Source: Clostridia bacterium
GTDB taxonomy: Bacteria > Bacillota > Clostridia > Christensenellales > Borkfalkiaceae
NCBI GenBank assembly: GCA_017558825.1
Contig: JAFYTO010000006.1
Coordinates: forward strand, 1 to 49,108
Direction: 5' to 3'
DNA length: 49,108 nt
Part shown: piece by piece, positions 2,615-46,842 of the stretch
How the letters are laid out: the number at the start of each line of letters is the position of its first letter
Position numbering within the stretch: position 1 is the stretch's first letter
Made by a program: the position numbers and the translations under genes
The notes under the pieces: generated by a model
What the model was told of the DNA's origin: nothing
Seen by the model: only the letters and a program-made list of their open reading frames with translations
Databases searched by the model: none

Positions 2615-2776
2615 TGGTGCCGCTGACCTCGTCGCAATAAACTACGCCCAAAGAAATTTGCAAGAAGCAAATTTCAAAATTGCTACGTTATTGCTCCTCT
2701 TCCCAAAATTCTTTTCTTACATAAAACAATTTTGGGAGCCCTTTTATTTTTTTTCGGCTCGCCTCCGTCTAGCGAC
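2615..2776 (-). ncRNA. CCA-ended tRNA-Leu-like element, copy 1
   Basis: A minus-strand stretch of about 162 nt that ends in GGTCAGCGGCACCA, the exact 3' end of the neighbouring tRNA-Leu. Its proposed 5' end, GTCGCTA, can pair with CAGCGGC in six of seven positions counting one G-U, so an acceptor-like stem is possible. The interior is not a cloverleaf; it has hairpins such as GAAATTTGC/GCAAATTTC. It shares ACGGAGG-N-GA-N-CCG near the 5' end, and GGGCGT near the 3' side, with copy 2. No clear terminator follows. Alternative: a decayed att-site duplication. Confidence 0.4.
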
Positions 2777-2781
2777 ATAAC

Positions 2782-2817
2782 AAAAAAGAGAGATAGCCAA
2801 AACTATCTCTCTTTTTT
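2782..2817 (-). terminator. Terminator after tRNA-Leu-like copy 2
   Basis: Ten-bp perfect stem AGAGAGATAG/CTATCTCTCT with a 6-nt loop, then a T-run on the minus strand. It begins directly after the CCA end of copy 2. Confidence 0.85.
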
Positions 2818-2904
2818 GGTGCCGCTGACCGGAGTTTGCCGAAACCCCTAAAGGGGAGCCTCTCGGCAAAAACCACGCCCCTCCGGTTCTCCTCCGTTCA
2901 ACAA
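2817..2904 (-). ncRNA. CCA-ended tRNA-Leu-like element, copy 2
   Basis: Minus-strand element of about 88 nt ending in ACTCCGGTCAGCGGCACCA, identical to the last 19 nt of tRNA-Leu(UAA). The interior folds strongly: ACCGGAG (2881-2887) pairs with CTCCGGT (2828-2834) around a nested hairpin TTTGCCGA/TCGGCAAA that contains CCCC-TTTA-GGGG. There is no anticodon arm. It lies between the tRNA-Leu terminator and its own terminator, so it would be made by read-through from tRNA-Leu or from an unseen promoter. The 5' boundary is a guess, and an acceptor-like 5' strand is not clear here. Confidence 0.45.
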
Positions 2905-2910
2905 GCAATC

Positions 2911-2941
2911 AAAAAAAGCAACCCTTAAAAAAAGGATTGCT
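2911..2941 (-). terminator. Terminator after tRNA-Leu
   Basis: On the minus strand AGCAATCC pairs with GGGTTGCT (one mismatch) and is followed by seven T. It lies immediately downstream of the tRNA-Leu CCA end. Confidence 0.75.
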
Positions 2942-2946
2942 TTTTT

Positions 2947-3033
2947 TGGTGCCGCTGACCGGAGTCGAACCGGTACGGTTGTTACACCGAGGGATTTTAA
3001 GTCCCTTGCGTCTGCCTATTCCGCCACAGCGGC
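2947..3033 (-). tRNA. tRNA-Leu (UAA)
   Basis: 87-nt class II tRNA on the minus strand: acceptor GCCGCTG/CAGCGGC, anticodon stem AGGGA/TCCCT with loop CTTAAAA (UAA), a long variable arm and encoded CCA. It has its own promoter upstream and a terminator downstream. It is the apparent parent of the two CCA-ended elements at 2615-2904. Confidence 0.97.
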
Positions 3034-46586: not shown

Positions 46587-46702
46587 TGGCGGAAGCGGTG
46601 GGATACAGCCACACCCTACTTTGTAGGGACACCCTGGCTGACCTTTGCCCGTCAAAGCGAGCCCGTCGTATGGCGGCCGAACCTATTATAAGGTTCACTT
46701 CC
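46587..46702 (-). ncRNA. CCA-ended tRNA-Ser-like element next to tRNA-Ser
   Basis: 116 nt on the minus strand. It begins GGAAGTG and ends CGCTTCC-G-CCA, the same acceptor strands, discriminator and CCA as tRNA-Ser(CGA) just upstream; the last 18 nt are identical to that tRNA. The interior is unrelated: a hairpin GAACC/GGTTC near the 5' end and a nested GCCA/TGGC with CCCTAC-aaa-GTAGGG. No anticodon arm of normal size. Flanked by terminators on both sides. Confidence 0.5.
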
Positions 46703-46717
46703 TTTACTTTTCGCACG

Positions 46718-46751
46718 AAAAAAAAAGGATGTCAAACCGACATCCTTTTTT
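46718..46751 (-). terminator. Terminator after tRNA-Ser
   Basis: GGATGTC/GACATCC stem extended by A/T pairs, followed by nine T on the minus strand, directly after the tRNA CCA. Confidence 0.9.
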
Positions 46752-46753
46752 CG

Positions 46754-46842
46754 TGGCGGAAGCGGTGGGATTCGAACCCACGATACGTTGCCGTATACCT
46801 GATTTCGAGTCAGGGCCGTTATGACCACTTCGATACACTTCC
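46754..46842 (-). tRNA. tRNA-Ser (CGA)
   Basis: 89-nt class II tRNA on the minus strand: acceptor GGAAGTG/CGCTTCC, anticodon stem CCTGA/TCAGG with loop CTCGAAA (CGA), a long variable arm, and encoded CCA. Confidence 0.97.

Follow-up and report, generated by a model that had tools for sequence, protein, structure and literature searches.

Many transfer RNA genes in a genus of Borkfalkiaceae are trailed by short hairpin units that end in a copy of the 3' end of the very tRNA they follow. We hold it somewhat probable (roughly 0.58) that these units are tiny, gene-less mobile elements that insert in the T-loop of a tRNA gene, or for some in the anticodon loop, and bring with them a copy of the tRNA's 3' end. 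Typically the tRNA is followed by a terminator (T1), an inverted copy of its 3' end (Y'), the core, a direct copy of the 3' end (Y) and often a second terminator (T2); Y' is weak in some units. Most units measure about 100-350 bp, and nearly all are without genes.

Units in the window and across the genus

The window, the whole 49,108-nt stretch of DNA that was analysed, holds three units on its minus strand. Two lie one behind the other downstream of tRNA-Leu(UAA), and the third (46753-46587) lies behind tRNA-Ser(CGA) and has a core unlike those of the Leu units. Their features are as follows.

2947..3033, minus strand: intact tRNA-Leu(UAA) (ARAGORN; Rfam RF00005, 57.9 bits)
2910..2946, minus strand: terminator-like hairpin T1 of the proximal Leu unit (inverted repeat I2)
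2883..2898, minus strand: Y' of the proximal Leu unit, an imperfect inverted copy of the tRNA T-arm (AACGGAGGAGAACCGG)
2836..2873, minus strand: core type B (GTTTTTGCCGAGAGGCTCCCCTTTAGGGGTTTCGGCAA) of the proximal Leu unit (recurrence in relatives, and fold)
2817..2835, minus strand: direct copy of the tRNA-Leu 3' end, 19 nt, CCA-ended, proximal unit
2781..2816, minus strand: terminator-like hairpin after the first displaced Leu copy (inverted repeat I1)
2755..2780, minus strand: Y' of the distal Leu unit, an imperfect inverted copy of the tRNA acceptor side and T-arm (TTATGTCGCTAGACGGAGGCGAGCCG)
2629..2754, minus strand: core type A (GGGCTCCC...GTTTATTGCGACGA) of the distal Leu unit (recurrence in relatives)
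2615..2628, minus strand: direct copy of the tRNA-Leu 3' end, 14 nt, CCA-ended, distal unit
46754..46842, minus strand: intact tRNA-Ser(CGA), bearing the third unit (ARAGORN)
46716..46753, minus strand: terminator-like hairpin T1 of the tRNA-Ser unit (by eye)
46678..46715, minus strand: imperfect inverted T-arm copy, then direct AGGTTCG, tRNA-Ser unit
46605..46677, minus strand: core type C (GCCGCC...GACGGGC...AGCCAGGGTGTCCCTAC..GTAGGGTGTGGCTGT) of the tRNA-Ser unit (similar cores in relatives)
46587..46604, minus strand: direct copy of the tRNA-Ser 3' end, 18 nt, CCA-ended

An earlier note, made from the letters of this stretch alone, had described two elements ending in the 3' sequence of tRNA-Leu, and both are there, CCA included (2835-2817, 19 nt, and 2628-2615, 14 nt); at the DNA level the proximal unit matches the tRNA end over 24 nt, an A-run included. 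The internal pairing and terminators it described are likewise present as predicted folds and inverted repeats. The terminator-like hairpins of the locus span 2948-2910 and 2818-2781, predicted folding energies are -40.0 kcal/mol for the proximal unit (94 nt) and -52.5 kcal/mol for the distal unit (167 nt), and in both folds the outer stem is formed by CCA-side sequence. The ACGGAGG-type blocks shared by the two elements, which were thought to be lacking in the tRNA, proved to be in part its own T-arm in inverted, imperfect copy: because the unit interiors open with such a copy (ACGGAGGAGAACCGG against CCGGAGTCGAACCGG, the reverse complement of the tRNA T-arm), the shared blocks are antisense tRNA. 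The Leu units overlap ORFs of 67 and 54 aa, and the window's units are too short for an integrase gene.

Rfam 15 at gathering score detected nothing but tRNAs in the window, and over 12 unit-bearing loci the only matches above threshold were tRNA and 5S rRNA, the remainder being sub-threshold; relaxing the search to E<=5 matched no core. The suggestion that the elements mimic substrates of the CCA enzyme, LeuRS or RNase P is not supported. No unit yields a cloverleaf in ARAGORN, about 9 of 13 folds (judged by eye) pair the CCA side with its own inverted copy, and the same cores stand behind tRNAs of many amino acids and behind tmRNA.

We surveyed the tRNAs of five genus genomes, located by Rfam search (37, 41, 40, 34 and 31 matches, the 37 being those of G000, the genome of the window and a 90% complete draft). 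A tRNA was scored as positive if its own last 12 nt recurred within 600 nt; 187 distinct tRNA loci were compared, including a few, none of them positive, from four other genomes fetched by similarity, and the mean flank covered was 538 nt downstream and 479 nt upstream. A copy of the tRNA's own 3' end was found downstream in 30 of the 187 and upstream in none, and exchanging flanks between loci in 200 control runs yielded 1.9 on average and never more than 6, which excludes chance. The positives are distributed over G000 (7), G002 (7), G003 (8), G005 (4) and G006 (4) and serve Ser, Leu, Glu, Pro, Arg, Tyr, Asn, Gln, Gly and Met. The true count exceeds 30, since the 12-nt rule misses units whose ends are worn, such as those at L152, L135, L102 and L041; L033, L052 and L281 likewise score as empty by this rule yet hold units with degenerate ends. 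The expectation that class II tRNAs would be the hosts was too narrow, since units also follow Glu, Gln, Pro, Arg, Asn, Gly, Thr and Met tRNAs. Whether a given tRNA bears a unit varies between species, and one tRNA may bear different cores. The T-arm and CCA end of tmRNA are also trailed by units, at L240 (G000:C10:2487-2641) and L237 (in G005).

Core types, join positions and spread

At least six core types, A to F, recur behind different tRNAs, and types C and F may be relatives of B. Core A is found behind tRNA-Leu, Pro and Arg and at dispersed sites in relatives, while core B was seen only behind Leu isoacceptors (tRNA-Leu(TAG) of G000 and tRNA-Leu(CAA) of G001 and G002). Cores similar to type C follow tRNA-Asn, Tyr and Arg of relatives. 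Within the genus core D follows Ser, Leu, Pro, Gln and Gly tRNAs, and across the family also Thr, Arg, Glu and other tRNAs; core E stands behind Ser, Glu, Gln, Leu, Arg, Pro, Gly and Thr tRNAs and tmRNA. The earlier view that the elements form a family and are not random decay is borne out by this recurrence of cores behind many tRNAs and genomes and by the co-variation of their stems described below.

Cores C to F each join the tRNA copy at a fixed place of their own, given here as the distance from the tRNA end and as a position counted back from A76 in the usual numbering. Core D joins 16 nt before the end (position 61) in 16 of 17 units, and so do all three further core-D units that the join survey left unclassified; cores C and F join at 18 nt (position 59; 5/5). 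For core E the join lies at 21 nt (position 56) in 5/5 units of the genus survey and in 43/46 of a wider survey whose search pattern fixes part of the join. Core A differs: at Arg and Pro tRNAs the copied 3' half starts from the anticodon loop, and at Leu 14 nt alone are repeated. By inference, the insertion point at tRNA-Leu(UAA) would be its T-loop. The arms are fitted to the host. For 75 of 82 units (p = 4e-14), the stretch before the direct copy resembles the antisense of its own tRNA more than that of other tRNAs. Some displaced fragments hold core C or D directly in their T-loop, with no Y' (L037, L033 and L207), so core and unit may move separately.

In the family, core D occurs in 20 of 61 genomes and 8 of 18 genera. 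Core E occurs in 6 of the 9 genus genomes and in 72 stretches of a species-level collection, which places it across the Clostridia and in Paenibacillus, with taxa that include Desulfosporosinus, Lutispora, Dichloromethanomonas, Christensenella, Peptococcaceae and two Paenibacillus; named isolates that carry it are Paenibacillus pasadenensis DSM 19293, Lutispora saccharofermentans m25 and Desulfosporosinus sp. HMP52. Less than 450 nt behind a same-strand tRNA or tmRNA lie 61 of 86 core-E matches, a count favoured by a search pattern that ends in T-loop letters; 16 more are at the edge of a sequence piece and 9 are farther from any tRNA or tmRNA, some of these in tandem arrays or behind an apparent island-displaced fragment. 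Viral contigs contained no match to the core-E pattern, and one core-E unit searched against phage and plasmid records matched nothing; these results give no sign of transfer between cells.

Copies of core A are scattered through intergenic DNA away from tRNAs as well, often as arrays of imperfect palindromes of about 120 bp (L039-L050, L053 and L057 in G002; L051, L055 and L056 in G005; L029, L036 and L054 in G008). The arms of these palindromes resemble TTTAAGACGTTAG...ATAACGGATTAAA, and neighbours have common arms and different inner parts. A separate dispersed palindromic repeat family (AAATCCGCC...GATGAAATC...GATTTCATC) follows tRNA terminators in L002, L072, L031 and L313. Two stretches of L002, 1286-1351 and 1378-1449, match Gut-1 (RF01706) at 40.7 and 34.6 bits, under the cut-off of 50; they lie some 60-220 nt past the tRNA-Leu(TAG) unit of G000.

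One unit may carry cargo. In G061 (L313 / L258), tRNA-Ser(GCT) and its own terminator are followed by about 2.2 kb and then by a terminator, Y', core D and the displaced copy. The intervening stretch holds two ORFs of 171 and 304 aa, neither with a Pfam match at E<=0.001. This is possibly a cargo-bearing unit, although it is a single case, and a later insertion between the parts might also have produced it.

Polarity of insertion and alternative explanations

Three species comparisons in which the distal copy carries the ancestral terminator argue for insertion of a segment composed of 3' end, terminator, Y' and core that restores the tRNA. At tRNA-Leu(TAG), G003 has no unit and its tRNA is followed by terminator GACTGTAATTTTGATACAAAATTGCAGTC; G000 has a core-B unit, and a near-identical hairpin follows its distal copy (score 66 over 70-nt segments), this hairpin being found at that tRNA only among the loci compared. 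At tRNA-Ser(GGA), G003 has a core-D unit behind terminator T, and G000 has a core-E unit beside the tRNA, with G003's terminator and the start of the core-D unit following the distal copy; in this one readable stack the newest unit adjoins the tRNA. At tRNA-Arg(ACG), the terminator that G002 has after its distal copy stands proximally in G005 and G004, and the sequence beyond differs. The Asn and Gln loci agree on the polarity, weakly because their matches run into dispersed repeats, and no clear case of the opposite polarity was found among the loci compared. By the same polarity the proximal Leu unit of the window (core B) would be the younger of its two. A comparison at tRNA-Ser(GCT) in Lutispora (L253 empty, L265 filled, T1 alike) was set aside as uninformative, the two terminators of L265 being nearly identical. 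Terminator transfer between tRNAs was considered and found weak: for different isoacceptors, 8 of 3113 filled-filled, 9 of 19550 empty-empty and 9 of 16106 mixed pairs reached the similarity threshold, and several of the 8 were Ser-Ser pairs.

These comparisons bear on the first alternative, that replication errors on site make the units: a polymerase snaps back at the terminator hairpin, copies the 3' end backwards, then snaps back a second time and copies it forwards. Such errors need no enzyme, make arms that are local, as observed, and would yield a Y-T-Y' palindrome centred on the terminator, which is very clear in L276. Over 81 units, the proximal and distal terminators are nearly the same in 19, which local duplication explains equally well, though part of the 19 is accounted for by tandem units (e.g. 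L253, L260 and L298). In 59 of the 81 the two terminators differ, with 3 more intermediate; in the three clear cases above it is the proximal one that is new; and cores common to many tRNAs and genera, with fixed joins, are left unexplained. We regard replication errors as an unlikely source of the units.

It is also rather unlikely that the units are functional trailer RNAs, CCA-ended hairpins that are transcribed and act on tRNA processing, termination or tRNA sensing, although the co-variation of the cores is strong. Co-varying stems, for which the earlier note had proposed a search, were found in cores E and D. Across an alignment of 89 distinct core-E rows, standard pairs fill 92.4% of pair cells. 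Both sides are changed in 492 cells, where shuffles average 153; sliding the structure lowers the paired fraction to 26-48%. The alignment was fitted to the model and its helix 1 is Y'/Y, which follows the tRNA, but helices 2-4, the core proper, show double changes in 25 of 25 pairs. Core D has two small co-varying hairpins with double changes in 6 of 10 pairs. Other features that would suit an RNA are the conserved core-E stretches read as unpaired (GGCGTGATAG and GGAGC) and the preference for G.A over C.T mismatches in the last core-E hairpin (42 against 6). In addition, for the Desulfosporosinus and Lutispora units shown, inspection by eye reveals no terminator hairpin separating unit from tRNA, and the two could be co-transcribed there.

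Against a trailer RNA, many units lie behind a terminator-like hairpin, their presence at the same tRNA varies by species and the same tRNA bears different cores. G.U pairs are few in the aligned core-E helices 2-4 (24 of 1283, a hand sum, against 4-12% in tRNA stems), though a looser longest-hairpin count gives 6.9%. The sense strand of core E folds more stably in 63 of 78 cases, but so do 61 of 78 shuffled cores, and folding energy therefore gives no decision between RNA and DNA; cores D and A go in opposite directions, the shuffled control being for core E alone.

Decay of integrase islands, in which an island has lost its inside and its two ends survive as the proximal 3' end and displaced fragment, is very unlikely as a general explanation: a restored tRNA with a displaced fragment fits the definition of tRNA islands used by Islander (PMC4383910), and G061 possibly bears cargo, but one core serves many amino acids, the units are short and sometimes tandem, and island-type fragments look different. 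Island-type displaced fragments are seen at tRNA-Ser in G014 and at tRNA-Arg(CCT) in G003:C8, a contig with an integrase match; they have neither Y' nor core, and a hairpin unit follows each, which argues that the units are not simply island ends. The earlier idea that the elements are relics of tRNA-targeted integration is thereby divided. Its integration part stands, on the ancestral terminator borne by the displaced copy in the clear cases and on the fixed T-loop join of cores C-F, and its extension to ordinary integrase-island relics appears not to, on these family and genus fragments that lack inverted copy and core.

A candidate mechanism and its place among mobile elements

In the reading we prefer, insertion of a mobile unit, the tRNA gene would be broken and yet kept whole by the 3' end brought along. 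Y'-core-Y may fold as a single-strand hairpin and serve as an attachment site, and a recombinase acting on this folded site and on a T-loop would insert the segment Y-T-Y'-core, much as an integron cassette or a tRNA island is inserted. The nested palindromes Y-T-Y' and Y'-core-Y might then let replication copy the 3' end from the displaced copy to Y' and on to the proximal Y. Through such palindrome-templated copying of the arms, one core could hypothetically serve tRNAs of many amino acids. Two observations are left over by this arm-copying model: cores C and D alone in T-loops, and core A in the dispersed arrays of G002.

The units would be moved by an enzyme, possibly a resident recombinase, or by host replication; the searches for tyrosine recombinases, Y1 transposases and reverse transcriptases revealed no dedicated enzyme, and neither circles nor excised forms of the units were observed. 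Phage_integrase matches occur in 8 of the 9 genus genomes, with one each in G000, G001, G002 and G008. The sole tyrosine recombinase match in G000 is a 349-aa XerS-like protein (L325, 1447-2496) on a contig other than the window's; its best model is XerS at 194.5 bits, under the cut-off of 267, and its G003 counterpart is also below cut-off. Against the integron integrase model TIGR02249 it scores 59 bits (cut-off 265), and no integron integrase was found in G000, an absence that is uncertain because the genome is a 90% complete draft. Y1 transposase (PF01797) was found in 0 of the 9 genus genomes and reverse transcriptase (PF00078) in 1 of 9, with none in G000. The XerS-like counterpart in G003 (L330) adjoins a gene resembling hflX, as read from the ORF. 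At tRNA-Leu(TAA) of G005 (L318, 13475-14682) the tRNA is followed by an integrase-like sequence split over two overlapping frames and by small genes. This is probably an island, and it stands at the tRNA that bears the Leu units in the window. A link between this integrase and the units was rejected, as no second tRNA-end copy lies in the 20.9 kb of contig searched.

Islands and phages classically integrate at transfer RNA genes, a given integrase typically being tied to particular tRNAs, and the T-loop and anticodon loop are known insertion positions of islands. The units resemble tRNA islands in their insertion inside a tRNA gene and in the restored target beside a displaced 3' fragment, but at their usual size nearly all are without an integrase or other gene, one core spans many amino acids and an inverted copy of the target lies beside the core. 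Integron cassettes have an imperfect palindrome, attC, at one end, enter with the newest next to the receiving site and form arrays. The units do likewise, although their receiving site is a tRNA T-loop, their arms are tRNA copies and nearly all are gene-less. REP and MITE sequences, such as the Rickettsia palindromic elements, are small, gene-less, palindromic, dispersed and tolerated beside genes, as the units are; the units differ in that their arms are taken from the target, insertion is site-specific, the gene is restored and no Y1 transposase was found in the 9 genomes. Tandem inversion duplications have the same direct-inverted-direct order with palindromes at both joints, but one joint of the units holds a core common to many tRNAs and genera.

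Islands, integron cassettes, IS200-type MITEs and retroelements each have a defining feature that was looked for in the units or in G000 and not found there; by analogy, the units would work most like tRNA islands or cassettes. Among the matches listed in openly accessible literature, PMC8040213 included, we saw no description of tRNA-trailing hairpin units. Tentatively, and with more doubt than confidence, we propose that they may represent a new class of mobile DNA: cassette-like, with an attachment hairpin that would be half travelling core and half host tRNA, and with nested palindromes that would copy the 3' end of the victim, so that one core could invade almost any tRNA or tmRNA harmlessly by means of a resident recombinase or replication, some units carrying genes.

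The named isolates that carry core E make the model testable. For annotation, the units matter because they can be mistaken for tRNA pseudogenes or island ends. For the biology of these bacteria, the finding is that short units occupy tRNAs of many amino acids and tmRNA, with arms fitted to each host. If the proposed mechanism is true, they would show how a mobile element can change its target freely and stay harmless, and would offer a small natural system for palindrome-templated copying and single-strand recombination.
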